From Bacteroidota bacterium (GTDB lineage Bacteria > Bacteroidota > Bacteroidia > Flavobacteriales > Flavobacteriaceae): a stretch of 64,000 bases of DNA. Numbering within the stretch: position 1 is the first letter of the stretch; every line of letters begins with the position of its first letter. Made by a program: the position numbers and the translations under genes. A model generated the notes under the pieces. It saw nothing but the letters and a program-made list of their open reading frames with translations. It ran no database searches and was not told where the DNA came from. The stretch spans positions 62,001-126,000 of the forward strand of contig JAKQHT010000020.1 in NCBI GenBank assembly GCA_029557895.1, in the 5' to 3' direction. Below are positions 35,319-52,125 of the stretch, one piece after another.

Positions 35319-37322
35319 TCACATTTTCAGCTTTTCCAATTTTTCCTGGTATCCTTTGATTTCATCCCTTAATTGTGCAGCAGCAATAAAATCCAAGGCT
35401 TTTGCAGCTTGCTCCATGTCCTTTCGCTTTTCCCTTATCTTTTTCTCTATTTGCGATTTTGTCAGGTATTTGCTTTCGGGTTCAGCCGCTTTTTGTGCCT
35501 CAAGTTCATAATGATATGTGCTTACCGAATTTTTTGCCAAGGCATTTTCCAAACCCTTGTTCAACGGTTGCGGCGTAATGTTGTTTTCGGTATTGTAACG
35601 TATCTGTTTTTCCCTGCGGTAATTGGTCTCGTCAATGGTTTTTTGCATGCTGGAGGTGATGGTGTCAGCATACATAATGGCCTTCCCGTTGAGGTTCCTT
35701 GCAGCACGTCCTACCGTTTGGGTAAGCGATCTAGCAGAACGTAAAAAGCCTTCTTTGTCGGCATCAAGGATGGCTACCAATGACACTTCCGGCAGGTCAA
35801 GCCCTTCACGGAGCAAGTTTACCCCGACAAGAACGTCAAACAAGCCTTTGCGCAAATCCTGCATGATTTCCACACGCTCCAATGTATCGACGTCACTGTG
35901 TATGTATCGTACACGGATTTGGATTCGCGCCAAATATTTGGTCAGTTCTTCTGCCATGCGCTTGGTAAGAGTAGTGACCAAGGTGCGCTCATCCTTTTCA
36001 ACCCTTTGCTGTATTTCCTCGATCAAATCATCGATCTGGTTGAGGCTTGGCCGAACTTCAATGACCGGATCGAGCAAACCCGTAGGGCGAATGACCTGTT
36101 CCACATAAACGCCGTCGGACTTTTGCAGTTCATAATCGGCTGGCGTGGCACTGATATACAGCACTTGGTTCTGTAATGATTCAAACTCTTCAAACTTCAA
36201 AGGGCGGTTGTCCATGGCCGCTGGCAGGCGAAAACCGTACTCGACCAAATTTTCTTTACGGCTCCTATCACCACCGTACATGGCATGCACTTGCGAAACG
36301 GTTACGTGGCTTTCGTCTATGACCATCAGGTAATCTTCCGGAAAATAGTCGAGCAGACAGAAAGGGCGCGTACCCGGCAATCTTCCGTCAAGATAACGAG
36401 AATAGTTCTCTATGCCAGAGCAATAGCCCAACTCCCTTATCATTTCCAAATCAAACTCGGTACGTTCCTGAAGGCGTTTGGCCTCAAGGTGTTTGCCTAT
36501 TTCCTTAAAATATTCAACCTGTTTGACCAAATCATCCTGTATGGCGCGAATGGCACCCTGCAAGACTTCCGGCGAGGTCACAAACATATTGGCAGGATAA
36601 ATATTGAGCCTGTCATATTTTTCGACAACCACATTGGTCTGGGCATTAAAGGCTTCCATTTCCTCGATTTCATCCCCAAAAAAATGGATGCGAAAAGCGT
36701 GGTCGGCATAGCCGGGGAAGATATCAACGGTATCGCCCTTAATGCGAAAGTTGCCATTACCAAAATCTGCCTCGGTTCGGGAATAAAGGCTCTGTACCAA
36801 TTGGTGCAAAAGTTTGGTGCGAGAGATGGCCTGATTTTTTTCAAGGTGAATAACATTTTTTTGGAATTCTACCGGATTACCAATACCGTACAGGCACGAC
36901 ACCGATGCAACCACCAGGACATCGCGACGCCCGGAGAGAAGCGACGAGGTGGTGCTCAACCTCAATTTTTCGATTTCTTCATTGATGGACAGATCTTTTT
37001 CTATGTAAACACCCGTTACGGGTATGTAAGCTTCGGGCTGGTAATAATCGTAATAGGAAACGAAATATTCGACCGCATTATCGGGAAAAAACTGTTTAAA
37101 TTCTGAATAAAGCTGTGCGGCAAGGGTCTTGTTGTGCGCTAAAACGAGGGTCGGGCGCTGCACATTCTCAATGACATTTGCCACGGTAAAGGTCTTTCCC
37201 GAACCGGTAACGCCAAGGAGTGTTTGGTATTTTTCATTGGCAATGATGCCCTTGGTAAGCTTTTCGATGGCTTGGGGCTGATCGCCTGTAGGTTTGTATG
37301 TAGATTTTATCTTGAATTTCAT
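35319..37322 (-). CDS. uvrB: Excinuclease ABC subunit B
   Basis: A 667-residue nucleotide-excision-repair helicase-like protein that verifies damage after UvrA loading and positions UvrC. Walker A is LLGVTGSGKT with Lys43, the damage-probing beta-hairpin is in YYDYYQPEAYIP, the helicase motifs include LVTTLTKRMAEELTKYL and LLREGLDLPEVSLVAILDAD, and the C-terminal UVR domain is KRKDMEQAAKALDFIAAAQL. Full length. Confidence 0.98.
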   Translation of the reverse strand: MKFKIKSTYKPTGDQPQAIEKLTKGIIANEKYQTLLGVTGSGKTFTVANVIENVQRPTLVLAHNKTLAAQLYSEFKQFFPDNAVEYFVSYYDYYQPEAYIPVTGVYIEKDLSINEEIEKLRLSTTSSLLSGRRDVLVVASVSCLYGIGNPVEFQKNVIHLEKNQAISRTKLLHQLVQSLYSRTEADFGNGNFRIKGDTVDIFPGYADHAFRIHFFGDEIEEMEAFNAQTNVVVEKYDRLNIYPANMFVTSPEVLQGAIRAIQDDLVKQVEYFKEIGKHLEAKRLQERTEFDLEMIRELGYCSGIENYSRYLDGRLPGTRPFCLLDYFPEDYLMVIDESHVTVSQVHAMYGGDRSRKENLVEYGFRLPAAMDNRPLKFEEFESLQNQVLYISATPADYELQKSDGVYVEQVIRPTGLLDPVIEVRPSLNQIDDLIEEIQQRVEKDERTLVTTLTKRMAEELTKYLARIQIRVRYIHSDVDTLERVEIMQDLRKGLFDVLVGVNLLREGLDLPEVSLVAILDADKEGFLRSARSLTQTVGRAARNLNGKAIMYADTITSSMQKTIDETNYRREKQIRYNTENNITPQPLNKGLENALAKNSVSTYHYELEAQKAAEPESKYLTKSQIEKKIREKRKDMEQAAKALDFIAAAQLRDEIKGYQEKLEKLKM

Positions 37323-37493: not shown

Positions 37494-39818
37494 CTACCTC
37501 ACCAAAGCAAAATGTCCTTTGAAAATCCTGCCGTCGGGCAGCGTAACAACAAACCAATAATCATCGCTTGGTAGCGGACGTCCTTTGAAAGTCCCGTCCC
37601 AGCCACCGCTCCAGTAATTTTGATGTGCCAGCAGTTTTCCATAACGGTTATAGATTTTAATATCAACTTCTGTATAAAACTGTTCGTTGACACCATAAAT
37701 TTGCCAAGTTTCGTTTTGGTTATCGCCATTGGGGGTGAAGAATTTTGGAAAACCTATAACGGCGATCTCTCGCTGCGAAATGCCACAACCGTTTTGATCA
37801 ATAACATAGACCGTGTGCAATCCCGGTGCAACATTATAAAAAACCGAACTTTCTTGATAAGGACCATTGGGGTTATCCAAGGCAAAAACATAGTCACCAT
37901 TGCCCGAGACGCTTACCGTAACCGTGTTATTGGATGTACCATCCTGTACGTTGACATGCTCAATGGTTGCTGCATTTGATGGCAGAACCGTGATATTTCG
38001 CTGGTTGGAACATCCATTAGGATCTGTAACTACAACGGTATAAATCCCGGTTTCGTTGACATCGTAAATTGATGCATCGGCACCCGTGGGATTTCCGTTG
38101 AAAAACCATTGATAATAATAGTTGTTAGGTGCGTCATTGATAACGCCACCATAAAGCCGAACGGTTTGTGGATAGCTGTCTTGGCAATAATATACGGTTT
38201 CATCGGCTTCGATTTGGGGAACATAAAGCACATTCAACTGTACTGTACTAACGGCAAAACATTGGTTGTTACTCAATACTTTGATATAAAGCTCTTGCGA
38301 ATCTACAGTGGTATTGACAAAAGGGGAGCCCAAACTGTTGTTACTGTTATAGGCATCTTCTTCATTTAAAAAATAAGCGACCGTCGCATCTGTTGGAATT
38401 TGATTAAGGAACGATGTAGTGATATTATCCAGGTTAAATTCCGTAAAACCATCTACTGGATCATCATCGCATACATTGTACGGTGGTACAACGAGCACAT
38501 TTGAGGATATGGACAGATACAGTTCTGCAATCCGAAAGCATTCTGCACCGTTTTCGATCCGTGCAAAAACGGTTTGGCCCGGAACGGTATTCCTGAAACG
38601 CCTCGGATCGGCAATGGGGTTTGTGTTTTGGACGGCACTGATTTGGTCTAAAAAGAAATTGGACACAAAATTGGAATTGCCGGTCAAAACAGATTCGGCG
38701 TCATAAAGGTCGTAAAAGGTAAGCCCGTCCTGGTCTTGGTCACATTGGGATAGTGTGGCGTTTACGGCGGTAATTTCAGAGTAATATTCTACGACCACTT
38801 CGCCATAGGCTATGCAGCCGTTGCCCAGAGACACCTCAACATTGTATGTGCCCGGATCTGTAACGGTATATGTTGAAGCCGTTTCGGAAGGAAGCTCCAC
38901 ACCATTCTTGAACCATTTATAATCAGTAGCATTGGCCTGTGAAGCGTCCAGAACGTGGGTTTCGCCAAAACAGACTGCGTTACGGGTGGACGTCAAAAGA
39001 TTGGGGCCCAAATCTGTTGAGAGCTGAAAACTTCCCGCTTCGAGGAACACGGCTGAATCGTATCGGTAATTCTGTTCATCGGCTATGACGAGCTTTACGT
39101 GATAGGTTTCGTTTGGGACGACGTTGGCCGTAGCCGTAAGGATTTTGGTCTGTCCGTTATAGTTGATGGGCGCCGATGGGCCGTTCCACCCTTCAAAATA
39201 AAAGGCATTGATGGGTTCACACGATCCGGGAATACCGGAATGTACCGTAGTTACCTTTACCGGGGTTTGCGTACCCGGTACCAAGGCAATATTAGTATAA
39301 TCGCCGGAGGAAGCAGGTTTTATCAAAAAGCCGAACAAATCAGAATATCGGCAAGTATTGGGATCGTTTTCCTGATATTCTTCAGAAGCAAATATATATC
39401 GGAAACTGATTTGCGAAGCGATGGCCATAAAGTCAAATTCCAAAATGGTGGCATTAATGGTATTTGGTTCATTGAGAATGTTCTCCAAATCTGCATCGCC
39501 TGTCCAGTTCGGTGCATTGTCATCGCTCAAAGTCGTGTTCGGACCTTGTGCATTACTTATTTTACCGGTGGCCAAAATGATACCGCTTTGGAATGGAAAA
39601 TTACTGCCATTTGCCTCAAAATAACCATAGCTGCGATCGTTACTGTTGAAATTGCCACCAACAACATTTGTAACCGTTACATTCTCGATGCAACTACTGT
39701 TTATAAGCACATCTTCCACAAGCTCTTGTGCTGAATATCCCTGTGCGTCCACACGGATATTTTGACCTATAGCAAGGCAAGGCAAAAGGAAAAAAATACA
39801 TATGGAAAAAAAACGCAT
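37494..39818 (-). CDS. Secreted choice-of-anchor L protein with T9SS type B domain
   Basis: A 774-residue protein with a signal peptide (FFSICIFFLLPCLAIG). An N-terminal choice-of-anchor L-type domain (about 25-270) has YIFASEEYQENDP and EGWNGPSAPINY. It is followed by an Ig-like domain (DASQANATDYKWFKNG), about two Asp-rich modules (QCDQDQDGLTFYDLYDA, VCDDDPVDGFTEFNLDN), further Ig-like sequence, and the C-terminal gliding-motility-associated domain FPKFFTPNGDNQNETWQIYG...NRYGKLL...GGWDGTFKGRPLPSDDYW. It is exported through T9SS and attached at the surface. First of four related genes. Confidence 0.93.
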   Translation of the reverse strand: MRFFSICIFFLLPCLAIGQNIRVDAQGYSAQELVEDVLINSSCIENVTVTNVVGGNFNSNDRSYGYFEANGSNFPFQSGIILATGKISNAQGPNTTLSDDNAPNWTGDADLENILNEPNTINATILEFDFMAIASQISFRYIFASEEYQENDPNTCRYSDLFGFLIKPASSGDYTNIALVPGTQTPVKVTTVHSGIPGSCEPINAFYFEGWNGPSAPINYNGQTKILTATANVVPNETYHVKLVIADEQNYRYDSAVFLEAGSFQLSTDLGPNLLTSTRNAVCFGETHVLDASQANATDYKWFKNGVELPSETASTYTVTDPGTYNVEVSLGNGCIAYGEVVVEYYSEITAVNATLSQCDQDQDGLTFYDLYDAESVLTGNSNFVSNFFLDQISAVQNTNPIADPRRFRNTVPGQTVFARIENGAECFRIAELYLSISSNVLVVPPYNVCDDDPVDGFTEFNLDNITTSFLNQIPTDATVAYFLNEEDAYNSNNSLGSPFVNTTVDSQELYIKVLSNNQCFAVSTVQLNVLYVPQIEADETVYYCQDSYPQTVRLYGGVINDAPNNYYYQWFFNGNPTGADASIYDVNETGIYTVVVTDPNGCSNQRNITVLPSNAATIEHVNVQDGTSNNTVTVSVSGNGDYVFALDNPNGPYQESSVFYNVAPGLHTVYVIDQNGCGISQREIAVIGFPKFFTPNGDNQNETWQIYGVNEQFYTEVDIKIYNRYGKLLAHQNYWSGGWDGTFKGRPLPSDDYWFVVTLPDGRIFKGHFALVR

Positions 39819-40147
39819 TTAAAATCTTTGAGTCAGCAAAGATACACAGAACTCGTCATGACTTTTTTTAAATTGGTTAAAAAAATGCCTTTTTGAATTT
39901 CTTTCAAACATTTTCCGATCCCCATCCCCACGATGCAACTAAAAAAAATGGCTTCTTCGTATCTCAAAACACGAAATTTCCACTTCAACCAAAAAAATTC
40001 AAGATAAGATTATAGCCTTCGTAAATGTTGTAGAGCGGACGGAACAGTGGTCCGACACAACCTCTGCAGAGCAATAAAAAAAATCCCGGGAAGCAATCCT
40101 ACATTCACAACCCGGGAAATTAATAAATAAAAAACAACTAAGCTTTT
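39819..40147. other. Intergenic region between T9SS genes
   Basis: 329 bp, AT-rich, without a gene. The right part holds the terminator of the 1608-residue gene. It may also contain the promoter for the 774-residue gene, but no clear box was seen. Confidence 0.5.
40072..40116 (-). terminator. Terminator of the 1608-residue T9SS gene
   Basis: On the minus strand CCCGGG (40116-40111), a 20-nt loop, CCCGGG (40090-40085), then a T-rich run. Confidence 0.65.
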
Positions 40148-43100
40148 TTAACGTCGTAGCGCAAAGTGCCCTTTTGCTTGAAAATTATAACCACCGCCCA
40201 CAACGTTGGCCACAAACCAGTAATCATTGGCAGGCATTTTCTGACCGTTGTAGGTACCATCCCAACCTCCGGAATTTGCTGTCAGATAGGCCAATTGCTT
40301 GCCATAACGGTCATAGATATAAATGGTCGTACCGGGTAGAGTTTCCACACCTATGATGTGCCAAGTATCAAACCTGCCATCATCATTTGGGGTCATGAAT
40401 TTCGGGAAATCTAACACCAGTACTTCTTTTGAGACTGAACCGCATCCGTTTTGGTCAATAACGGTAACGGTATGATAACCAATGCCCACATTTTGGAACA
40501 CATTGGACACTTGTGGCTCATGATCATCCAACTGGTAGAGATAATCACCTATTCCGCTGATGGTAATTGTGATGTTGTTCGGGTCAGAAAAATCAACAGT
40601 TTCCACAATTTCGATATTGGCCATTTCAGATTCATAAATGTTAAATTCCCTTGTGGTCGTACATCCAAATTCAGTAGTGACGGTTACGGAGTAAACTCCT
40701 ATTTGGTCAATTCCGATTTCTGGAGTTGTTTCGCCTGTGGACCACAAATAGGTATCGTTAGCATTGTTGGTATTGGCACTTACCACCAATGGCAAGTTAT
40801 CCAAACACAGGTATTGGTCCAAGTCGTCCACAACGGGTTTGGGATGTACTATGACATTAAACTGGCTATAGTTACTGCAACCTGTATTGTTATTTGTGAC
40901 CCTTGCATATATGGTCTCTGTATCAAATGCAAAATACATTTCTGGCAACGGGTTGGCACCACTTTGAGCATCTTGTAAAGTATTGTGGTATGTCACTGAA
41001 AAAACAGCTGGATTTTGTCCGCCAAGAATGGCAGCATCTTGAGCAGAAAGGTCAAACTCACGAAGCCCATCATAATCATCATCACAATCCTCAAGGTCAT
41101 TGGCCGTGTGGGCAATGGGCAATGGTCTTACCACCAGTTGGAAAGCGTATGTGGTAGAACAATGGGTTGTGGCGTTTTCGATCCTTGCATAAAGCGTTGT
41201 ATTGGTGGACGCATAATGGTAATCTGTGCCCAAAGGAGCCAAACCTTGCATAGCATCGGAGGCTGTGGCATGATAAGTAATGAGCATTTCAGACGGATTA
41301 TCCACAATCAAGCTGTTCACTACCAATAAGTCGAAATAACTATCACTATTGTCGCACACATCTATCGAACCAAATTCATTGATGGCGGGCGGAAGGTTGA
41401 CAATCAGTTCTAATGGAAGCGAAAGGTAACAATTGGAAACGGTATTGGTAAGCCTGACAAAAACCGTTTGTGGGCTGGAAGTATTGGTATATGCCGATGG
41501 GTTAGTGATGGCATTTGTTTGATTGTGCAAATCGTCTTCTGTTTCGTAATAAGTCACAACAATATTGTCCTGCCTGACGTCCAAGATTTCGATTTCTGAC
41601 AAGGTCAAGTCGAACGTGACGATGCCATCATAGTTATCGTCACATAAAGTCAGTGGTTGTGCCGGACTGGCTTGTGCTACCTGAATGACATTCAGTGTAA
41701 ACGAGGTAAAAGATGGACAAATAGTACCATTGTCTATCCGTACATAAATCTGTTGGGGGTTCACAAAGTTGGAAAACTGTAAAGGGACTGCATTGGTACC
41801 CGCTTCTGCATCTATTTGCGAAGTATGGAAAGTGACATCAACATTACCGCTGATACCGGCCGTAATCTCATCTATTTTAATGTTCAGATCAAAAATTTCA
41901 GTGGCATCGTTGGAAATATCATCGCACACAAACCAATCGACAGGTTCGTTAAATTCCGGATTTGTTCCCACTTCAATGACAAATGAGGAAACGCCATAAC
42001 AATCTTGGTCATTCAAATTTTCAACCCTAACAAAAATGGTTTGCGGATTGCTCGTATTCTGGTAGGCAGTGTCTTTGTTTATTTCGTTAACACGGTTGTT
42101 GGCATCATTTTCATTAAGAAAATACAGCACCTGTTTTCCGGTCTGTCCATTGAGGATTTCATCATCTTTTTCCGAAAAGATAAAATCTCCGAAACCATTG
42201 CTTTCAAACTCACAGAACCTAAAATTGCTGATGGGCACAAATGCAGGTTGCGTGTTAACATACAGATTATAATGCTGGCTGGTCCAACATCCTGTTGATG
42301 CATTGGCAACCTTGACATAAATCTCACGGGATCCGGTAAAGAAATTGGAAACATTCTGGAAAGGATTCGCGTTCTGTTCAAGGTCTTCAACACTTCCATA
42401 AAACGTAAAAACGAGATTGGAAGTGTTAGTGACCAATTCGGCATACACCTGGGTCAGGTCGTAAAAAACCATCCCGTCCTGATCGTCGTCGCAAAGGAAT
42501 ACATCGTTTGGTTGCATCGACACCGGAGCAGGCAGTACATTGATTTGCATTGGATTTACATCACCACAAGAAGTGTTTACAGATATAATTTTAGGGTAGA
42601 CCGTTACGGGATTGACCGTATTGGTATAAAATGCCGGTAGCGGGTTTGCATTGTTTCTGGCATCTTCTTGGGTCGCGAAATATTCTACTACATAACCTTC
42701 AATGCCACCAGTAAGTTGGGCATCAAAACTGTGCAGGTCTATCGAAGTAAAACCATCATCATCATCGTCACAATAGTTCACCGGTGGAATGGGCGGGAAT
42801 TCATCAACGACATTGAGCACCAGTTCAATTTGCGATACCTCCTGGCAAGTTGGACTGTTGAGAGTGATATAGAGCAACATCGGATACTCGGTAGGTGTAA
42901 GCGACACATTGGGGTCGAGTGCATTGGTCCCATTTTGCTGATCCTGTTCTGTAGTATAAAAAGTAATGGTCACGTCCTCAAGTCCATTGATGATTTCCAG
43001 GGCTATGATTTCTAAATCGAAAGTTACAAATCCGTCGTTATCTTCGTCACATTGTGAAAAGTTCCTAATGTCTGTACCTGTGAGCAGCAAGTTAGAGTGG

Positions 43101-44974
43101 ATTTCAAAAGATGTAACAGAAGCGCATCCTGTATTGGCATCTTCTACACGGATGAACAGTGTTTGAACTTCGGCAACCGTATTTTGATAGTTGGTTTCAT
43201 CTGCAATAGGGTTTTCACCTGAAACGGCTTCGTCATAAGATTCGTGGAATGTTACGTTAACACCGGTAAGGCCTTGTAAAATATTGTTTACAATGGATGT
43301 AAGGTCAAAATTTGCAAAACCGTCCAAATCGGCATCACAACCATCTATGAAAATGTCCTCGTAGTTGATAACGGGATTGTCGAGCACGGTATATGCAAGG
43401 GATGTTGTCCTGAAACAGCCTGTAAGGGCATCGACCACCCTGACAAATACTTGGCCATTGTTTGATGTGGTGGTATATGGGTTTCGCAGCGGATTATTAC
43501 CAGAATTTGCCTGTGCTTGTGTAAGATGATAGGTAACAATAAGATTACTGTTACCATTGGTAATCTCATCGTCTTTTTGCCTCAGGTCTATTTCTGTTTG
43601 ACCGTCGGCAATGGCATCATCACAAACTACAAGTTCCGTGGGATCGACAATGGAAGGTAATGGATTTACTACCAAGTTGAAATTTGCGTAAGCAATACAG
43701 CCATTATCAATATCTTCAATCCGAACATAAATGGTTTGTGGGCTGGATGTATTTTGGATCGGAGCTGTTATTTCCCCGGTATTGTTCTGGGCGGCGCTTG
43801 ACGTATGATGGTATGATATATGGTAATTCGAATCTGGCACCGCAGCAAGGACAACAGCATCCATACTGCCGAGGTCAAATATTTCAATGCCGTCACCGCT
43901 TGGGTCATCACATAGTTGAAAATCAGGAATGGCATCTGCGGTCTGTGTAGAGTTTAAGGTAACTTCCACATGATCTTCAATAACGCAATTGGACCCTCCG
44001 AACGGTATGGTAATCTTTACGGTATAGGTACCGGATTGGGTCGCAACATAGGTTGGCTGGTTGGCATTGGCCACTAAAAACCCATTCAAAAACCAACTAT
44101 ACGAAGCGGCAGGATTTTGGATATTTCCATCAAGAACAGTGCTTGAAGAGCAGGTGGTCACATCATCACCCAAATCTACCGATGCGTTAAAACTGTTGCC
44201 TTGGATAAAAACTGCAGAATCATAGTTTTTGTCCCTTTGATCTGCGATGACCAGTTTGATTCGATAGGTCGTATTGGGCACAATGCTCGCCACGGCCGAA
44301 AGTATCGTTGTCTGTCCATTGTAATTGGTGTCCATAAGGTTGTAGCCTGCAAAATATTCTTCGTAGGATGCAGGGCAAAAACCAGCTATTTCGGGATGGA
44401 TGGTATTGGTATTCACCGGCGTAGATGTTCCGGGTATCACAGCGATATTTGTATAGGGGTTGCTTGAACCGGCTTCTTTGATAAGAAACACGAAAGCATC
44501 CGAATAATTACATGGAAAATCGGCAAAATATTCTTCGGATGCAAAAATATAATTGAATTGGATCTGGTTTGAAATGGATACAAAATCGAACTCAATAGCG
44601 GTGGCGTTCAATGTATTATCGATTCCCAAAGCAGCTTCAAGGTCCGGATCGGTCAGCCAGTCCGACTGGCCTTCGTTGAGCACTGCCGTATTTATGCCGT
44701 TTCCTCCAGAAACAGCCCTTCCCGTTGAAAGCATGATGCCATTCTCAAACGGAAAGTTGGAACTGCCCCTTTCAAAATAGGCAAAACTGGCAAATCCATT
44801 TATAGAACCATTGACCGGAGAATTGACATTTGATGCTTCGACACAGCCTTGTACCAAATAATCTTGAATAAGCTGTTGTGCCGTAAACGAGTCATCTATA
44901 GATATTTGTTGTGAAAACATCAAACTACCGAAGAAGCAGACGGACACGATGAGGGATTTTCTTATAATTTTCAT
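40148..44974 (-). CDS. Giant secreted T9SS type B protein with 11 Asp-rich modules
   Basis: A 1608-residue protein with a signal peptide (LIVSVCFFGSLMFSQ). N-terminal choice-of-anchor L domain (YIFASEEYFADFP, AGYNLMDTNYNGQTTI), an Ig-like domain, then about eleven modules of roughly 90 residues, each opening with CDxDxDGxxxFDL and closing with a NTxxPQTIFVRVExxxTGC motif. A further Ig-like domain (TYLWSTGETTPEIG) and the T9SS type B end (FPKFMTPNDDGRFDTWHIIG, NDYWFVANVVGGGYNFQAKG) follow. The Asp clusters suggest calcium binding (inferred). Probably a surface adhesin or matrix protein. Confidence 0.93.
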   Translation of the reverse strand: MKIIRKSLIVSVCFFGSLMFSQQISIDDSFTAQQLIQDYLVQGCVEASNVNSPVNGSINGFASFAYFERGSSNFPFENGIMLSTGRAVSGGNGINTAVLNEGQSDWLTDPDLEAALGIDNTLNATAIEFDFVSISNQIQFNYIFASEEYFADFPCNYSDAFVFLIKEAGSSNPYTNIAVIPGTSTPVNTNTIHPEIAGFCPASYEEYFAGYNLMDTNYNGQTTILSAVASIVPNTTYRIKLVIADQRDKNYDSAVFIQGNSFNASVDLGDDVTTCSSSTVLDGNIQNPAASYSWFLNGFLVANANQPTYVATQSGTYTVKITIPFGGSNCVIEDHVEVTLNSTQTADAIPDFQLCDDPSGDGIEIFDLGSMDAVVLAAVPDSNYHISYHHTSSAAQNNTGEITAPIQNTSSPQTIYVRIEDIDNGCIAYANFNLVVNPLPSIVDPTELVVCDDAIADGQTEIDLRQKDDEITNGNSNLIVTYHLTQAQANSGNNPLRNPYTTTSNNGQVFVRVVDALTGCFRTTSLAYTVLDNPVINYEDIFIDGCDADLDGFANFDLTSIVNNILQGLTGVNVTFHESYDEAVSGENPIADETNYQNTVAEVQTLFIRVEDANTGCASVTSFEIHSNLLLTGTDIRNFSQCDEDNDGFVTFDLEIIALEIINGLEDVTITFYTTEQDQQNGTNALDPNVSLTPTEYPMLLYITLNSPTCQEVSQIELVLNVVDEFPPIPPVNYCDDDDDGFTSIDLHSFDAQLTGGIEGYVVEYFATQEDARNNANPLPAFYTNTVNPVTVYPKIISVNTSCGDVNPMQINVLPAPVSMQPNDVFLCDDDQDGMVFYDLTQVYAELVTNTSNLVFTFYGSVEDLEQNANPFQNVSNFFTGSREIYVKVANASTGCWTSQHYNLYVNTQPAFVPISNFRFCEFESNGFGDFIFSEKDDEILNGQTGKQVLYFLNENDANNRVNEINKDTAYQNTSNPQTIFVRVENLNDQDCYGVSSFVIEVGTNPEFNEPVDWFVCDDISNDATEIFDLNIKIDEITAGISGNVDVTFHTSQIDAEAGTNAVPLQFSNFVNPQQIYVRIDNGTICPSFTSFTLNVIQVAQASPAQPLTLCDDNYDGIVTFDLTLSEIEILDVRQDNIVVTYYETEDDLHNQTNAITNPSAYTNTSSPQTVFVRLTNTVSNCYLSLPLELIVNLPPAINEFGSIDVCDNSDSYFDLLVVNSLIVDNPSEMLITYHATASDAMQGLAPLGTDYHYASTNTTLYARIENATTHCSTTYAFQLVVRPLPIAHTANDLEDCDDDYDGLREFDLSAQDAAILGGQNPAVFSVTYHNTLQDAQSGANPLPEMYFAFDTETIYARVTNNNTGCSNYSQFNVIVHPKPVVDDLDQYLCLDNLPLVVSANTNNANDTYLWSTGETTPEIGIDQIGVYSVTVTTEFGCTTTREFNIYESEMANIEIVETVDFSDPNNITITISGIGDYLYQLDDHEPQVSNVFQNVGIGYHTVTVIDQNGCGSVSKEVLVLDFPKFMTPNDDGRFDTWHIIGVETLPGTTIYIYDRYGKQLAYLTANSGGWDGTYNGQKMPANDYWFVANVVGGGYNFQAKGHFALRR
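40850..43935 (-). repeat. Array of about 11 degenerate protein modules
   Basis: About 3.1 kb made of roughly 280-bp units encoding the CDxDxDG...PQTIFVRVE...TGC module. Units are diverged at DNA level, so this is an old duplication, although ten of the eleven keep the N-terminal Cys-Asp pair. Bounds are approximate. Confidence 0.75.
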
Positions 44975-45258
44975 CCTAATATTTCAGTTGTATCACAACC
45001 AAAACCGTTGAATTTAATTTCAATAGAGGGTACGGTTGCATCAATTTGAGGCTGAAAGTATATTATTGTTAGACGAAATGCAAAAAAATACGATGAAATG
45101 CATTAAACTTTAACAATAAATATAAAATATGTAGGATATTACTTTCAAAAAATCCGATTAAAGAACAATTTCTTCCGTTCGGAATTTTAAAAATATAAAA
45201 AAAGTAGTTTCAATACTTTTCTTAAAAGTCTGGTTTATAAAAATTTATTAACAATTTT
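44975..45258. other. AT-rich intergenic region
   Basis: 284 bp very rich in A and T between two T9SS genes. No gene, hairpin or clear promoter box was seen. Confidence 0.5.
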
Positions 45259-47043
45259 TCAATAGTTGAGATACACCCAACCTTTCATCGGAGTTGGATA
45301 GTCGGGATCATTAAGATAAAGTATATAGTAATACGTACCTGTCGGAACAAGTATCCCTCGGTTGTTCAAACCGCGATTTGCTCTACCATCCCAAGGGTTG
45401 GTATTGTTACCTTCATATATGAGTGTTCCGTATCTGTTATAGATGTACAATCTGTGATGCAAAAAGATATCGTACAGTCCTTGTATGTTAAACCAGTCAT
45501 TGACACCGTCACCGGTGGGAGAAAACCCTTCCGGGATTAATGGCGGGCAATTCCTGACCGCAACTTCAAACCTATAAACTTCAAAGCAAGGAACGCTTTG
45601 CACTTTCACATAAATGGTCTGCGGATTGGATATATTGGAAAAATATTCAAAAAATGTTATACTGTTTTCATTGTTAACGAGATCAGTCATGGAAGTATAA
45701 AACCCCAGGATATCACTTATGGCAATATGGTCGGGCAAAGCTTCGGCCAAATTGAACATCGCCGAACTAAACCCGATATTACATTGCACCATGCCCGAAA
45801 TGTCGGTAATCAATGACGTGAACAACCCTTCGATGGTCACAGAATCATAGTTGTTGCTTTCGTCTATCTCCGTAACCATGCCAAAACCGCTACCATCGTC
45901 ATCTACGACCAATGTCAACTGGAACGGCTCCGGGATATTTTCGGGGATCGACATGATAATGCTCCCGTTTTCAGAACCCCCAATTTCAATTGGGGCTTGT
46001 GTTGCGGTCTGTCCAATCAATATTTCGTTTGCATAAAACGAAATGGGCGTGTTAGCTGGCAGAACATCGGTGGCATTGTTGTTGCGCACAACAAAGTTGA
46101 GTTCAATATCACGGTCATTGCAGGTCAATATATGGTTTTCATAATCAATGGTGGCATCGGGAAGTTGACTGTTCAATACGGTAACGATATTGTTTACCAT
46201 CACAAAATCCCTGCCGGAAGTTAGCCGTATAAATGCCGATGTATCACCGATACTGATGTGATTTTGAATGTCATACACATCAATATCCATATTGTAAAGT
46301 TCTGTTGAACCCGTAAAGCTGTTGGTACCATTGAAAGCGTTGTTCACGGGATTCAACGGTGGGTTGCCAATGGGTATGCCATTGATGGACAATGTTTCGT
46401 TGACTGCGAGTGCCGCATCGCCTTCCCAAGCGAGGAAACCAATTTTTGCGCCTTCATTGTCCAGCACGTTCAAGTTGTCAAGGGTAATGGTTATCTCAAA
46501 TGGCACACTTTGCATACCATCATAAATGTTCAATTGGTTTAACGGCAGCCGGGCGTCTTCATAAACAATAATGATTGCCCACCCGCCAAAGTTGGTCCCA
46601 TTCAAACAATAAGGCCCCAAAATATCTGAAATATCAAATTCTGAAACTGTGTAACTACCATTACCCCATTCAAGAATCTTGTCTGTCACATCGGAAAAGG
46701 CAGAAAAATTTGTTTTGTTGTCGTAAAAAATGGGATCAAACACCCTATCGACAGTTACAGGTTCGCCGTTTAAAAGTATGTCAAAATCACCGGGGCCAGA
46801 TCCTGCCCAATACAGATAAGCCGATACCACGGTCCTGTCCTCATCAAGATCTAACGTTGCAGAAGAAGATGTCAATATGGTACAGTCACTACCTTGTTCG
46901 TTTTCTACGGGATTCAAGGTATTGCCTATAGCTACATAATCGTACCGTCCATTGAACTGCCGGAACAAAGAAATATCTTGAGCGTACATGTATGACGACC
47001 ATGCAAACACTACCAAAAAAGATATATTTTTGAATGTTTCCAT
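45259..47043 (-). CDS. Secreted T9SS type B protein with adhesin-like domains
   Basis: A 594-residue protein with a signal sequence (FKNISFLVVFAWSSYMYAQ). The N-terminal 290 residues form a beta-rich domain (AYLYWAGSGPGDFDILLNGE, NGTNFGGWAIIIVYED) resembling DUF3344-type surface domains. Then a CARDB-like stretch, one divergent copy of the module found in its neighbours (SNPQTIYVKVQSVPCFEVYR), and a T9SS type B end (PEGFSPTGDGVNDWF, IYNRYGTLIYEG). The genes at 45259 and 47071 are only 27 bp apart and may be cotranscribed. Confidence 0.9.
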   Translation of the reverse strand: METFKNISFLVVFAWSSYMYAQDISLFRQFNGRYDYVAIGNTLNPVENEQGSDCTILTSSSATLDLDEDRTVVSAYLYWAGSGPGDFDILLNGEPVTVDRVFDPIFYDNKTNFSAFSDVTDKILEWGNGSYTVSEFDISDILGPYCLNGTNFGGWAIIIVYEDARLPLNQLNIYDGMQSVPFEITITLDNLNVLDNEGAKIGFLAWEGDAALAVNETLSINGIPIGNPPLNPVNNAFNGTNSFTGSTELYNMDIDVYDIQNHISIGDTSAFIRLTSGRDFVMVNNIVTVLNSQLPDATIDYENHILTCNDRDIELNFVVRNNNATDVLPANTPISFYANEILIGQTATQAPIEIGGSENGSIIMSIPENIPEPFQLTLVVDDDGSGFGMVTEIDESNNYDSVTIEGLFTSLITDISGMVQCNIGFSSAMFNLAEALPDHIAISDILGFYTSMTDLVNNENSITFFEYFSNISNPQTIYVKVQSVPCFEVYRFEVAVRNCPPLIPEGFSPTGDGVNDWFNIQGLYDIFLHHRLYIYNRYGTLIYEGNNTNPWDGRANRGLNNRGILVPTGTYYYILYLNDPDYPTPMKGWVYLNY

Positions 47044-47070
47044 GTTTGGTTGACCTTTATTTGGATAGCA

Positions 47071-50000
47071 CTAACGTTTCAGAGCAAAATGTCCCTTGAA
47101 AATTCTTCCATCCTCTAATGTTACGTGAAACCAATAATCGTTTGCTGGCAGTTTGCGACCATTGTACGTTCCGTCCCAGCCTTTGCTCAACGGGTCAATT
47201 TGGGCGACCAGTTTTCCTTGGCGGTCAAAAATGTATATGGCACTCAATGCCTGGTGGCGTGCCGTGATGCCGTACACCTGCCAATAATCATGCACATTGT
47301 CACCATTTGGCGTAAAGAATTTTGGAAAACCGATTACCGAAATCAATTTTTCGGCAATACCGCATCCATTTTTATCCCTGACATAAACGGTCCTGATACC
47401 TGGTAGGACGCCATAAAAGATGTTATCATCTTGATAAGGGCCAAAACCATTGTCTATGGAATATTCATATTCACCCTGACCGCTGACCATAACCACTACG
47501 GTATTGTTGTGCGAGCCGTCGCTCACTTCTATATTCTCAATCACTGCAATGTCGGATGATGTTACACGAACGGTTCTATCTTTAAAACAACCTTTGGTAT
47601 TGGTGACCCTAACAGTGTAAGTTCCGGGCTCGTTGACTTCAATTTCGGAAGTGTTCTCCCCTGTGGACCATAGGTAATAGTAATTGCTGGCAGAATCGTT
47701 CAAGACCCCTCCTGTAATGGTCAAGGTCCCTGGATACGTGTTCTGGCAATAGAAGTATTCTTCTTCAGTAATCACATTTGGGAGCTCATTGATCTTGAGC
47801 TCAATACGACTGATGCCATAACAAGCATTGGCATTTTCTACACGGGCAAATACAGTTTGCGAATAGGGTTCCGTGTTCGTATAAATTGGACCGATGGCAT
47901 TGGTTTCCAAAAGCGCATCTTCATAAGTTTCATAATAACGAATGTCCAATCCGTTAGGCAAATTGGCAAGCACCGCATCATTGGCCTGGGTGAGGTCAAA
48001 GCTGTAAAAACCGTCCTCGACACCATCATCATCACATTGTTTCAAAACGGTATCATTTGAATCGGTTGTGGTGGCCTGCAAGGTGATTTCGGCCAAGTTG
48101 AAACACCCAGAAACAGTATCGACAACTTTAGCGATGATGATATGCGGATTGAAATAATTTTGAAAATGGCTGCCATCAATCGCATTGACGGCATTCAGGG
48201 CATCAGATACGGAAAGGTAGTAAGTCACTTCCCTGTTAGCAGCACCTCCGGTAATATCGTCAAGAACCTGGTCGATGTTAAAAATGGTATAACCTTCAGG
48301 AATACCGTCTTCATCGCATTGCAAAAGCACAACATCATTGGCAATAGGCAAACTTTCGATTGTCAAAACAAACGAATCCGCAACATAACAATCTGATTTA
48401 ATATTACTTTCAATCCTGACAAAGATCGTTTCGTTGGGAACGGTGTTCGTATAATTGTTTGGCAACGGGTTGTCTCCTGAATTTGCGTCTGCTTGATTGT
48501 TATGGAATGTCAGGGTATAATCTGCAGTGCTCTGGTTACCCATAAAAATATCCGCAAATTCTGAAAGATCAACCGTGGCGATACCATCTGTAACGTTACC
48601 GGAAAAAATGGCATCACAAAGAGATTGATCTGCAAGGTTATAGATTACCGGAGCAATATATGCCTCTATCTGGAAGGATGTGATGTCATAGCAATTGCTG
48701 TTGCTCCTATTGTTTACCTTTGCAAAAATCTGTTGTGGATTGGAAATATTCTCGTAAATACCTGGTAGTTCATTAACTCCATCAATGGCATCTTGTTGCG
48801 ATTGGAAATAATGGACTTCAAATACCAATGGATCTTGTGCGCCGAGGATTTCGCTGTCCAACAAAGTGAGGTCAAAAGAAGCGGCATTACCATCACTGCA
48901 CTGTACCACTCCCGTGGGTGGGGTGGCAACAGGGTTTTCATGGTAAAACACGAACGCTTGTCCTTCAATATCGCAATCCCCGGTATTTGTGTTGATATAT
49001 ACCTGATAATGTCCCGATTGATTGATATCAAGCGTGTGACCTGTTTCCGTTAGCTGAACGCCATCGTGTGTCCAAATATAAGTGGCACCAACAATATCAT
49101 CTGCCCTCAACGTGTAGGTGTCACCGTCGCACAATGGCAGGTTCAGGGTATTTACGTTATTCTGGATGATGTCTATTTGGGTATTGAATATGGATTGCAT
49201 AAACGGTGGCAACCCTTGAGAAGATTGGTTTGGCGACAGGTTAACACCTTCATGGACATAACCACAAGCATATCCCAATTCGTTGGGATTGTTGATGACT
49301 CCCAGATAGGGCAACCCCGTATCGTAGGTAGCGCTCAAGGCCCGGTAAATTTTTCCGTCAGGACCCAACTGCAAGCCGCCACGGTAAAGTTGCCTTTCGT
49401 CAATATTGACCCTTGATGCAGAGATATCGGTTGCGTTAAGGTTGAACTGGCTCAATGTAGAACGGTGAGACGTCGGGTTGTTACTTTGACTATCATTAGA
49501 AGAGTTGACATACAGCAACTGGCTGTTTGGCGAAAACTCCACGCCATAGGCATAATTGCTGGACGTATTGATGGTTAACAGTCTCCTATTGCTCACTATC
49601 CCTGTATCAACATCAAAATCAAAAAGGCTCATCCCGCTCCCCATATTGGCACAGGCGAGTTTTTGGCCATCGGGTGAAAGTTTAAGGTAACCCCTGGCTT
49701 CGGACGTGGCCATATTGGGGAAGGTGGAGACAACAGCCACGTTACTGACACCCACATCAGAAACTTCAAATGCATGAAACGAATTATAAATTGTGTCCGT
49801 ACCATTAGCAGAAGCATATGTGATGACCCATATCGATTTGGTCAAACAGTCCTTGAGCACGGCGCTAATTTTTTCAGAACAATTGGGAAGCAAGTTAATG
49901 TTCTTTATGGTGACACTCCCAAGCCCGCCATTGAGCGACATGTCAATTATCGAATAGTTGAGCCCTCGATTGATACCGTCCAAAGCGTTATCTACCGTAA

Positions 50001-50346
50001 AGACATAAAACAAGTTATTGTCATTGGGCTTTTGCACAATAATGGCAGATTGGGTACTGGAAGAATCCCCATATAGACCGACACCGTTGAGCATGACGTT
50101 GTTGTTTCTGTCCCACACCGTGGAACCATCGGTATAAAACAATAAGTTACCAAACACATCGGAAATGCTTGCACATCCTTCATTGGTTGAGAGCGCACCT
50201 CCATTGACTGCGTTTACGGTATTATTGTTAAGGTCAAATTGTAGGGCGGCACCATAACCGAAAAACCAGTTGGCGGCCTGATTTTGAGCAATACACACAT
50301 TTCCAGTGATGTACAAAGCAACAAAAATCAATACGGATCTTTTCAT
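47071..50346 (-). CDS. Secreted T9SS type B protein with beta-propeller and four modules
   Basis: A 1091-residue protein with a signal peptide (LIFVALYITGNVCIAQ). The N-terminus (NWFFGYGAALQFDLNNNTVN, SDVFGNLLFYTDGSTVWDRN) starts a WD40/PQQ-like beta-propeller of about 380 residues common in T9SS type B proteins. An Ig-like domain, four Asp-rich modules (VQCSDG, SLCDAIFSG, LQCDEDG, KQCDDDG), another Ig-like domain and the type B end FPKFFTPNGDNVHDYWQVYG follow. It is the most upstream gene of the minus-strand cluster; a TATCTTTG box lies at 50377-50370. Confidence 0.92.
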   Translation of the reverse strand: MKRSVLIFVALYITGNVCIAQNQAANWFFGYGAALQFDLNNNTVNAVNGGALSTNEGCASISDVFGNLLFYTDGSTVWDRNNNVMLNGVGLYGDSSSTQSAIIVQKPNDNNLFYVFTVDNALDGINRGLNYSIIDMSLNGGLGSVTIKNINLLPNCSEKISAVLKDCLTKSIWVITYASANGTDTIYNSFHAFEVSDVGVSNVAVVSTFPNMATSEARGYLKLSPDGQKLACANMGSGMSLFDFDVDTGIVSNRRLLTINTSSNYAYGVEFSPNSQLLYVNSSNDSQSNNPTSHRSTLSQFNLNATDISASRVNIDERQLYRGGLQLGPDGKIYRALSATYDTGLPYLGVINNPNELGYACGYVHEGVNLSPNQSSQGLPPFMQSIFNTQIDIIQNNVNTLNLPLCDGDTYTLRADDIVGATYIWTHDGVQLTETGHTLDINQSGHYQVYINTNTGDCDIEGQAFVFYHENPVATPPTGVVQCSDGNAASFDLTLLDSEILGAQDPLVFEVHYFQSQQDAIDGVNELPGIYENISNPQQIFAKVNNRSNSNCYDITSFQIEAYIAPVIYNLADQSLCDAIFSGNVTDGIATVDLSEFADIFMGNQSTADYTLTFHNNQADANSGDNPLPNNYTNTVPNETIFVRIESNIKSDCYVADSFVLTIESLPIANDVVLLQCDEDGIPEGYTIFNIDQVLDDITGGAANREVTYYLSVSDALNAVNAIDGSHFQNYFNPHIIIAKVVDTVSGCFNLAEITLQATTTDSNDTVLKQCDDDGVEDGFYSFDLTQANDAVLANLPNGLDIRYYETYEDALLETNAIGPIYTNTEPYSQTVFARVENANACYGISRIELKINELPNVITEEEYFYCQNTYPGTLTITGGVLNDSASNYYYLWSTGENTSEIEVNEPGTYTVRVTNTKGCFKDRTVRVTSSDIAVIENIEVSDGSHNNTVVVMVSGQGEYEYSIDNGFGPYQDDNIFYGVLPGIRTVYVRDKNGCGIAEKLISVIGFPKFFTPNGDNVHDYWQVYGITARHQALSAIYIFDRQGKLVAQIDPLSKGWDGTYNGRKLPANDYWFHVTLEDGRIFKGHFALKR

Positions 50347-50377: not shown

Positions 50378-51205
50378 TTACAAATCGCGTACTTTTAATA
50401 ATCTGTAAGACAAAAAAACAAATAAAGCCGTCCACCCCATTACCACAACAATCTCGTACCAATGCACGGCATAGTCGTAAGCCAGGTCCGCCTTATCGGG
50501 AAACTTGGTCATGATCATTCTTTGGAACGGTTGGTCAATCAATTTGTACATCGATTCAAGCGGCAAATAGCTCTTGGCCCTGAATGCGCTGTCAACATTG
50601 CCAAACACTTCATATGCGCCCCAAAAGAAAAGCCATTCTACGATATAGAGCACAAAGAGAAATGCCAGAGCAAAGGCTGACCGCTTTAGCAACATCCCAA
50701 AAAACAGGCACAAACTAAAGAACCCTACCAATTTCACAAAATATGCAAGGAGAAACTCTGTTTCCCGTGAGATTATAGCCGCCTCGGTATAACTGGAATA
50801 ATACAATCCAATCAAAAAAGTTGCCAGCCCAATAAGCACCGTGGAAATCAGCGAAAAGAACACGATGGTATAAAATTTTGAGAGAATAAATTCCTTTTTG
50901 CTCAAACCATCGATCAAGTTCTGCTTGATGGTCTTGTTGCTGTACTCATTGCCGATCATGCTGACCACCACTATCGCAAAAAAGAACTTGAAATAGGATG
51001 CAAAAAACGTGGTGATGTGCCATATAACGGGAAAGTTGAATATCCCGAGTTCACCCAATTCCAAGGTAAAAAAGCCAAAAAAATTGATCTTTATGGAAGA
51101 CAGTACCAATACTGTGAATGGCAAGATGAAAGAGATAAATATCAGCACCCTATTGACCTTGCTCAAGAGTAGTTTTTGAAGTTCGAGATCGATAAGTCGT
51201 CGCAT
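50378..51205 (-). CDS. ABC-2 type transporter permease
   Basis: A 275-residue membrane protein with about six helices. LINRLxx-type gating is absent, and a large extracytoplasmic loop is at 190-250. It sits 23 bp after the ATP-binding subunit gene, forming a two-gene exporter or membrane-remodelling ABC system. The substrate is unknown; lipoprotein, antimicrobial or gliding-related transport has been suggested for similar pairs in Bacteroidota. Confidence 0.88.
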   Translation of the reverse strand: MRRLIDLELQKLLLSKVNRVLIFISFILPFTVLVLSSIKINFFGFFTLELGELGIFNFPVIWHITTFFASYFKFFFAIVVVSMIGNEYSNKTIKQNLIDGLSKKEFILSKFYTIVFFSLISTVLIGLATFLIGLYYSSYTEAAIISRETEFLLAYFVKLVGFFSLCLFFGMLLKRSAFALAFLFVLYIVEWLFFWGAYEVFGNVDSAFRAKSYLPLESMYKLIDQPFQRMIMTKFPDKADLAYDYAVHWYEIVVVMGWTALFVFLSYRLLKVRDL

Positions 51206-51228
51206 GAAATCTGTTTTTTTGGATTGGT

Positions 51229-52125
51229 TTATTGGTTGTCTGTAAGCTTTAAGAACTGTTCTTCAAGGCTTTCCTTGCGCTTCACAAGGTGTGAAAGCAC
51301 AATGCCATTGTCAAACAAATACGTGTTAAAGGCCGTTGCATCCATAGGTTGGTTCAAAAATGCGGTCACAAGGTCGTCTTCCTGCTTGAGTTTCCCAAAG
51401 CGGTCATCAGATTCCAAGAGTTGCACAAGGGCATCTTTCTTTTCGGCTTTAAGTTCAAAGAAACCAAAACTGTTGATGATTTCGTCCACACGGCCCGCAT
51501 ACAGTTTTTCGCCCTTGCGAAGTACCACAACATGTGTGCAGACTTTCTCTACTTCGTCCAGCAGGTGCGATGCCAAGAGAATGGTTGTACCGTTGGCGGC
51601 AATGGTTTTGATGAGTGAACGTATCTGGTGTATGCCCTGTGGATCGAGACCGTTTGTAGGCTCATCCAAAATCAGGATTTCCGGGTCGTTGAGCAATGCC
51701 GAAGCAATAGCCAACCGTTGTTTCATACCCAAAGAAAACGCACTGAACCTGCTGTCCTTTCTCTCAAGAAGCCCGACAAGATCCAGTTTTTCGTCAATCT
51801 TTGAAAAATCGACCCCTTTGATCTTGCAGACCAATTTCAAATTTTGGTACGCACTCATGTACGGATAAAAATTGGGCCGCTCAATGATGGCCCCGACCTT
51901 TTTGAGAGCATCATGGGTGGTGGTATTGCCGCCAAACCAACTATATGAACCGGAGGTTTTGTTGACCACATTGAGCACAATGCCAAGGGTGGTGGATTTT
52001 CCGCTGCCGTTAGGGCCCAAAATGCCATACACATTGCCCTTGTTGATGGTAAAGCTCAAATCTTTGACAGCCGTGAGGTAGCCAAATTTCTTGGTGAGGT
52101 TGTTGATGGTCAGAATAGTTTCCAA
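51229..52125 (-). CDS. ABC transporter ATP-binding protein
   Basis: A 298-residue ATPase. Walker A is GILGPNGSGKSTT, the signature is FSLGMKQRLAIASALL, Walker B is PEILILDEPTNGLDPQG, and the switch His follows (LLASHLLDEVEK). A C-terminal regulatory extension of about 80 residues is present. Works with the permease at 50378-51205. The gene is upstream of a repeat/transposon scar. Confidence 0.95.
   Translation of the reverse strand: METILTINNLTKKFGYLTAVKDLSFTINKGNVYGILGPNGSGKSTTLGIVLNVVNKTSGSYSWFGGNTTTHDALKKVGAIIERPNFYPYMSAYQNLKLVCKIKGVDFSKIDEKLDLVGLLERKDSRFSAFSLGMKQRLAIASALLNDPEILILDEPTNGLDPQGIHQIRSLIKTIAANGTTILLASHLLDEVEKVCTHVVVLRKGEKLYAGRVDEIINSFGFFELKAEKKDALVQLLESDDRFGKLKQEDDLVTAFLNQPMDATAFNTYLFDNGIVLSHLVKRKESLEEQFLKLTDNQ

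Follow-up and report, generated by a model that had tools for sequence, protein, structure and literature searches.

This analysis concerns a 64,000-nucleotide stretch (the window) of contig JAKQHT010000020.1 in assembly GCA_029557895.1, positions 62,001 to 126,000, from a bacterium of the Flavobacteriaceae (Bacteroidota; Flavobacteriales), and specifically a cluster of four minus-strand open reading frames (ORFs), A, B, C and D, that spans positions 37494-50346 of the window (Table 1). A type B C-terminal domain (CTD) of the type IX secretion system (T9SS) was found in 4/4 genes, above the curated cut-offs of both Pfam CHU_C and NCBIfam TIGR04131, and what look like hydrophobic signal peptides can be made out by eye at the N-termini of the A-D translations. 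The proteins also carry a module of about 93 residues, in 2, 11, 1 and 4 copies, respectively. An original prediction, made from the sequence of the window alone, had described four minus-strand T9SS type B genes with one module in these copy numbers, and the CTD models, together with a hidden Markov model (HMM) of the modules of B, reproduced that description exactly. The main result is that the 11-module array of B appears, by sequence comparison, to have been kept across genera and to be lengthened by triplets of modules.

Table 1. Features of the four-gene cluster and its flanks, in window coordinates (aa, amino acids; Ig, immunoglobulin)
Feature	Position	Strand	Description
Gene A	37494..39818	-	774 aa; putative signal peptide, choice-of-anchor L head, Ig-like domain, 2 modules, tail of Ig-like and beta domains, type B CTD
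A choice-of-anchor L domain	39027..39689	-	residues 44-264; NF038133, 172.3 bits
A modules A1-A2	38187..38744	-	B-module HMM
A type B CTD	37497..37757	-	residues 688-774; TIGR04131, 107.7 bits
Gene B	40148..44974	-	1608 aa; putative signal peptide, choice-of-anchor L head, Ig-like domain, 11 modules, tail, type B CTD
B choice-of-anchor L domain	44189..44872	-	residues 35-262; NF038133, 156.9 bits
B array, modules B1-B11	40808..43912	-	HMM; compared with 74 orthologues
B modules 9-10-11	40808..41644	-	triplet copied in longer arrays; position-specific profiles; modelled with module 8
B type B CTD	40151..40411	-	residues 1522-1608; TIGR04131, 103.8 bits
Gene C	45259..47043	-	594 aa; beta-rich head, one degenerate module, CTD of a group other than that of A, B and D
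C module C1	45550..45783	-	B-only HMM match over residues 447-500, i-Evalue 3.5e-8
C type B CTD	45268..45537	-	residues 503-592; CHU_C 69.6 bits, TIGR04131 39.9 bits
Gene D	47071..50346	-	1091 aa; head (possibly a propeller), Ig-like domain, 4 modules, tail, type B CTD
D modules D1-D4	47749..48900	-	B-module HMM
D type B CTD	47074..47334	-	residues 1005-1091; TIGR04131, 114.7 bits
ABC-2 permease and ATPase	50378..52125	-	upstream of D, 31 bases away
uvrB	35319..37322	-	downstream cluster boundary, syntenic anchor; UvrB models, 1036 and 1013 bits

The modules of the four proteins are homologous. An HMM built from the 11 modules of B alone recovered four modules in D (i-Evalues 2.7e-12 to 7e-20), two in A and one in C, where the match (3.5e-8) spans only part of the module, and its list was empty for 200 shuffled sequences, 50 made from each of the four proteins. 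A search of the whole genome listed 27 copies: the 18 of the cluster, seven in a gene for a 2152-aa protein on contig C22, and two in a gene for a 1443-aa protein on contig C4. Pairwise identity among the 18 window modules is low (mean 26%, maximum 38%), which marks them as old copies.

The number of modules in B was followed in two sets of relatives. In the first, a scan of public genomes with B, the best 80 of 433 relatives were kept; they represent 79 loci, for the most part of Winogradskyella, Psychroserpens, Gelidibacter, Bizionia, Xanthomarina and other Flavobacteriaceae. The 106 complete B-class genes, found in 77 of these loci, comprised 95 with 11 modules, 9 with 14, 1 with 17 and 1 with 20. 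Of the 95, 88 scored 11 directly; six (1610-1634 aa) scored 10, leaving a module-sized unscored gap at module 3, often with the second module assigned to another position, and were counted as 11, as was one gene that scored 12 by a spurious 6-bit match in its Ig-like domain. One 11-module gene, at locus L089, is shorter than the rest, at 1427 aa. A second or third B-like gene was present in 27/79 loci, contig-end fragments included, and at L131 (2309-22330), from the uncultured Psychroserpens isolate 14-3Z, three B-like genes with 20, 14 and 17 modules stand in a row.

The second set was a sample of 299 genomes of the same family, searched at E 1e-200 with two candidates scored per genome. A B-like match was found in 98/299, and 92/104 of the B-like matches had open frames of 1606-1664 aa. 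Fifty-one complete arrays were read (the 30 best matches, those of odd length, and some others), giving 44 with 11 modules, one of them (at L176) a gene with the module-3 gap, 2 with 14, 3 with 17 and 2 with 9; left uncounted were L172 (at least 15 modules) and L173, both cut by contig ends, and L188, broken by stops. Both 9-module arrays, at L170 (1023-5267) and L171 (1714-5967), belong to genus g22, match positions 1-9 and have no modules 10 and 11. Two irregular genes were also seen: a B gene at L174 (1327-5526) with all 11 modules that ends at 1399 aa without tail or CTD, by truncation or an assembly fault, and the L188 gene in genome G133, split by stop codons into pieces with modules 1-3 and 5-11 and likely to be a pseudogene.

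Not only the count but the identity of each module is matched between genera. Simple best matches paired each module with its own position throughout L041-L044 and L046; the more distant L045, L048 and L049 showed a few exceptions, most of which were resolved by position-specific profiles made from the 74 orthologues and the window. With these profiles every module was assigned to its own position in 13/15 11-module arrays that had not been used for training, the other two matching at 10 and 9 positions. In the family sample all 11 positions were matched in 39/43 directly scored 11-module arrays; L181 (two genes), L182 and L186 missed one or two. Free gain of modules as the mode of evolution was rejected for B, in which the counts scarcely vary and the modules correspond position by position; the module gain inferred in the original prediction is not borne out for this gene.

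Where B arrays are longer, they are longer in one way. Every complete array of 14, 17 or 20 modules reads as positions 1-11 followed by 9-10-11 once, twice or three times more (those of G012, G132, G142, G167 and G256 included; one assignment was marginal), and every gain seen in B was a copy of this triplet. B thus appears, from the arrays compared, to be of near-constant length and to grow by triplets. Within the 11-module array, modules three apart are also more alike than expected (permutation p 0.009 by profile-profile comparison, 0.019 by HMM scores), while periods of 2, 4 and 5 were not significant; after correction for four periods the values are about 0.036 and 0.077, and hint at earlier rounds of triplet growth.

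In trees of the triplets, many long arrays have inserted and terminal triplets that do not group together, as would be expected if an old insertion had been followed by further steps. Approximately unbiased (AU) tests did not reject a single origin of all inserted triplets (p 0.198 and 0.198), nor did a test on a set picked after the tree had been seen (p 0.667). A quick tree placed the triplets of G132 (L177) among 11-module relatives. Several independent founding events were considered, but proof was not obtained, as one origin passes the AU tests. The neighbouring triplets of G132 share 73% and 66% DNA identity, with exact runs of 86 bases between the first and second and 42 between the second and third, which suggests recent unequal recombination. 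Triplets of the other long arrays share 49-62% of their DNA, with exact runs of 23 bases at most.

Near-constant counts in an array of such diverged modules can be read in two ways: either the length of B is held by selection, or it is frozen by a lack of recombination. The latter explanation comes close to an even chance. It holds that length itself is not selected, that the modules are too diverged to recombine, and that one chance duplication of a triplet then enabled further steps of three. The longest exact DNA match between any two modules of the window B is 14 bases (median 8), a single origin of the extra triplets is retained by the AU test, and the long exact runs in G132 are what unequal recombination would leave; in periscope proteins, too, arrays vary most where the repeats are most alike (PMC8201768). 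Inertia hardly explains, however, why losses are so rare among orthologues and paralogues that share 37-67% protein identity: short arrays number two, from a single genus, among the 51 complete arrays and none among the 106. The period of three inside the 11-module array likewise hints that triplets were copied before the event that this explanation treats as a matter of chance.

A stronger version of the selected-length reading would make B a molecular ruler with a three-module unit (11 = 2 + 3x3), its growth selected in whole triplets to give set heights of 11, 14, 17 and 20 modules, several of them possibly in one cell. This idea is a rather doubtful one.

A rule of three for all four genes was also considered and is ruled out by D: D-like genes have gained modules by a doublet (L097) and by expansion of a single module (L113), and five D-headed genes carry only D3-D4. 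At L113 (5056-9783), D1 is the best-scoring assignment for each of the first seven modules of the D-like gene, a pattern that differs from the triplets of B. The order D1-D2-D3-D4 is kept in 51/63 complete D-headed genes, the remainder having two modules (5 genes, all D3-D4), one (4 genes), or six, seven or nine; the gain in a 7-module gene is of unclear kind. In at least 33/37 further complete genes, a D3-D4-like tail cassette follows an N-terminal part that does not resemble any of the heads of A-D. Head swapping, which had been proposed for this family, is thus visible when genes are compared between genera, mainly behind D-like tails. The related proposal of local paralogues also held, as A and B share a head type and many loci contain additional B-like genes. 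Among the four genes, the choice-of-anchor L domain (NF038133) was found in A and B only, as predicted, while the 'propeller' of D and the 'beta-rich' head of C rest on scattered, weak Pfam matches (Lactonase propeller 3/16, CARDB 4/15); a credible relative of these two heads was sought in the PDB and none was found. A literature search for 'choice-of-anchor L' gave no match.

Identical counts in relatives, which the original prediction had named as a refuting result, were found in three genomes of the same genus (G001-G003) and one of another genus (G008), with 4-1-11-2 modules (D, C, B, A) in adjoining genes. It is flanked by the ABC transporter genes and uvrB in G002 and G003, as found by BLAST, and in G001 and G008 as judged by ORF size only. 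That result does not extend to gene content: G011 lacks A but has D, C and B with 4, 1 and 11 modules, G009 has an 11-module B beside two other genes, G005 has an 11-module B alone, and G012 has several B-like genes. Across the 79 loci uvrB was seen in 49. The permease is followed by a D-headed gene in 54/59 of the loci that have it, so D may share an operon with this transporter.

Two cysteines are invariant across the 18 window modules, and a cysteine within residues 56-80 is kept at all 11 positions of B in 75/75 sequences (the window and 74 orthologues); the pair may form a disulfide bond. The motif CDxDxDG, which had been put forward as the module signature, serves as such only in part. 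In its strict form it was found at positions 3, 5, 6, 9 and 11 in 45-63/75 sequences and at position 4 in 21/75, but at positions 1, 2, 7, 8 and 10 in 0/75, and module 10 has no DG near its start in any of the 75. Acidic, Asp-rich loops such as CDxDxDG can bind calcium, and those of the modules may do the same.

No Pfam or NCBIfam family consistently matched the four-module stretch in 51 orthologues, the commonest sub-threshold match being Ig_7 (7/51, E 0.02 or worse), and no description of the module turned up among the titles and abstract openings covered by a literature search. An AlphaFold2 model of modules 8-11 (predicted local distance difference test, pLDDT, 91.0; predicted template modelling score, pTM, 0.64) shows beta domains joined in a chain, each bearing two short helices, and the module is predicted to be an Ig-like sandwich. 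In a sample of the phylum, with at most 17 candidates scored per genome, it was present at E 1e-8 or better in 39/296 genomes, 35 of them from the same order. All 330 module-bearing ORFs with a visible 3' end are closed by a type B CTD; these came mostly from loci found with B, 13 being from the phylum sample, and a further 18 that are cut at the 3' end bring the ORFs to 348 in all. In this survey, therefore, the unnamed Ig-like module appears to occur only in T9SS type B proteins, consistent with the earlier claim that it is one homologous module common to such proteins.

The original prediction gave all four proteins the same tail, which is true of A, B and D but not of C. In a tree of 39 CTDs, a split with support of 100/99 separates A, B, D, the type B genes found near L060-class shuttle genes (see below) and the large gene of contig C22 from C and four others, the latter being the shuttle-paired CTDs of this genome. 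Two CTD groups are present within one cluster. The genome encodes SprA, GldJ and GldL, all above cut-off, and five PorP_SprF genes, four adjoining type B genes and one, on contig C9 at locus L060, that does not. Seven loci were read around the L060 gene and its orthologues. In three of them a type B gene carrying the module lies 5-7 bases away, and in a fourth such a gene lies at a distance of about 1.6 kb. In Flavobacterium johnsoniae, 3/12 substrates are unlinked to a shuttle gene, and three orphan substrates use one orphan shuttle (PMC12618676). Taken together with the CTD tree and the linkage of L060, this leads to a simple prediction, in which the L060-class shuttle would serve A, B and D, and a different one would serve C. 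Co-occurrence with B is not informative here, because the shuttle class was found in 248/299 genomes of the family sample at E 1e-50.

In the present genome the L060-class shuttle gene stands without an adjoining type B gene (L060 1447-2457, L195 8672-9682), and the usual type of partner for its class, the 2152-aa, 7-module gene, sits on contig C22. The shuttle gene is at the start of its contig in G008 (C15), G011 (C59), G040 (C6), G056 (C16) and G151 (C5), and in G002, G011 and G012 a contig-end shuttle gene lies beside a CTD fragment. Its position at contig ends probably means that the repetitive partner gene breaks short-read assemblies.

The presence of GldJ, GldL and SprA raises the question of whether these are mobile gliding adhesins like SprB, moved by the gliding motor, and in F. 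johnsoniae some type B CTDs do send cargo to helical tracks (PMC12618676). The same paper also describes type B substrates that do not move, and with the CTD of the orphan Fjoh_1123 most foci were static, helical motion being seen in 3% of cells. Motor-driven movement of A-D seems unlikely.

A structure search with the model of modules 8-11 gave fragments of the Aureispira protein GhpA as the eight best of 983 aligned chains, at modest Z values of 8.2-9.5, over 280-305 residues and with a root-mean-square deviation of 9-12 Angstrom; the next match was titin (Z 7.8). GhpA fragments were again the first matches for a model of the whole A protein (mean pLDDT 85.2, pTM 0.48). No GhpA chain was found by sequence searches of module alignments up to E 1 (A1) or E 10 (A3), and the likeness would seem to be one of fold, not of family. 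That A-D form an oligomeric appendage rather than single stalks, after the model of the GhpA hook, in which a T9SS-secreted protein is reported to form a heptamer (PMC11205867), is improbable despite these structural matches, given the missing sequence match and a deviation over several domains at which only the domain fold is common to both.

The interpretation that fits best, and which is considered moderately probable, is that A-D are T9SS type B surface proteins of the fibrillar-adhesin type, that B is a stalk of set length growing by triplets, and that two shuttles serve the cluster. All four proteins would be exported by the Sec system, would reach the exterior by way of the T9SS translocon of the outer membrane, and would be kept on the cell surface by their CTD and shuttle, PorP-like proteins having been proposed to anchor type B proteins (PMC9143113). 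The 11 non-identical Ig-like modules of B, each with two conserved cysteines, would form the stalk and hold the choice-of-anchor L head away from the membrane, where it could be displayed and might take part in adhesion. One PorP/SprF-type shuttle, encoded elsewhere in the genome, would deliver A, B and D, and another would deliver C. The B array would be old and nearly fixed, lengthening by copies of 9-10-11, with unequal recombination between triplets once a first copy had been made. Of these elements, the homology of the modules, the near-constant counts, the steps of three, the CTD groups and the linkage of the shuttle class are seen in the sequences themselves, and the fold comes from prediction.

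Several observations weigh against this interpretation. Both samples of relatives favour B-like genes, undercount second copies and overlap in species. Genus g22, with its 9-module B, is an exception, having the sole short arrays among the complete ones counted. Two distant genes with A-like heads, L050 (8492-12829; same family) and L051 (3022-6981; same order), neither counted as B-class, have 8 modules without the positions of B. None of the five PorP/SprF genes of the genome is within the cluster, and the stretches fetched at L195 (this genome), L193 and L197 hold no type B partner of the kind seen beside the shuttle elsewhere. In the CTD tree the four shuttle-paired CTDs are long branches, and their placement is less sure. 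With regard to structure, the absence of a GhpA sequence match also counts here, tandem Ig-like domains match many unrelated proteins, as titin illustrates, and the structure tool itself treats best Z values of 7-8 as common without kinship.

The interest of these findings is threefold. Surface proteins with repeat stalks, the periscope proteins, have been portrayed as changing quickly in repeat number, whereas the B array is held at one length across genera and, in the longer copies read, extended by threes; the B-like family is widespread, and its longest array is a natural experiment on what the length of a stalk is for. The module represents a domain family that has no name in Pfam or NCBIfam. 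Lastly, the grouping of CTDs predicts a shuttle for each of four neighbouring cargo proteins.

Several known systems resemble the cluster in part. GhpA (PDB 9fls, 9fly and others) is likewise a T9SS-secreted protein of Bacteroidota with tandem Ig-like domains, but no sequence match to it was found, and hooks and heptamers are features described for GhpA. The T9SS type B substrates SprB, Fjoh_1123, Fjoh_1720, Fjoh_4934 and PG1035 have a type B CTD as A-D do; some of these are not adjacent to a shuttle gene and have one unlinked shuttle in common. The sections consulted in PMC12618676 and PMC9143113 describe neither the module family nor the cluster nor an 11-module array. Titin, with its super-repeats (PMC7427331), is the nearest parallel in idea to a steady stalk, an Ig-like chain with a higher-order, multi-domain repeat that has been discussed as a ruler. 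It is a muscle protein, however, whereas the unit of three modules seen here closes an array in a bacterium, and a role as ruler is hypothetical. A super-repeat of that kind is evident in B, in that all complete longer arrays add 9-10-11 units; the period of three inside the 11-module array is weaker.

Periscope proteins (PMC8201768) also consist of tandem folded domains that project an N-terminal domain, but their repeats, at least 80% alike in the screen described there, vary between strains, while the 18 window modules have a mean identity of 26% and the count in B is nearly constant between the species compared. The overall architecture is that of fibrillar adhesins (PMC8286594). A-D differ from these in that their stalk module has no Pfam family and their heads have not been assigned to any known adhesive domain; they are alike in having a head, tandem stalk domains predicted to be folded and a predicted C-terminal anchor. 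CHU_C, the same CTD family as in A-D, was counted in 134 fibrillar adhesin-type proteins (PMC8286594), and the 11 modules of B, folded as predicted, would provide the tandem stalk by which such proteins are recognized.

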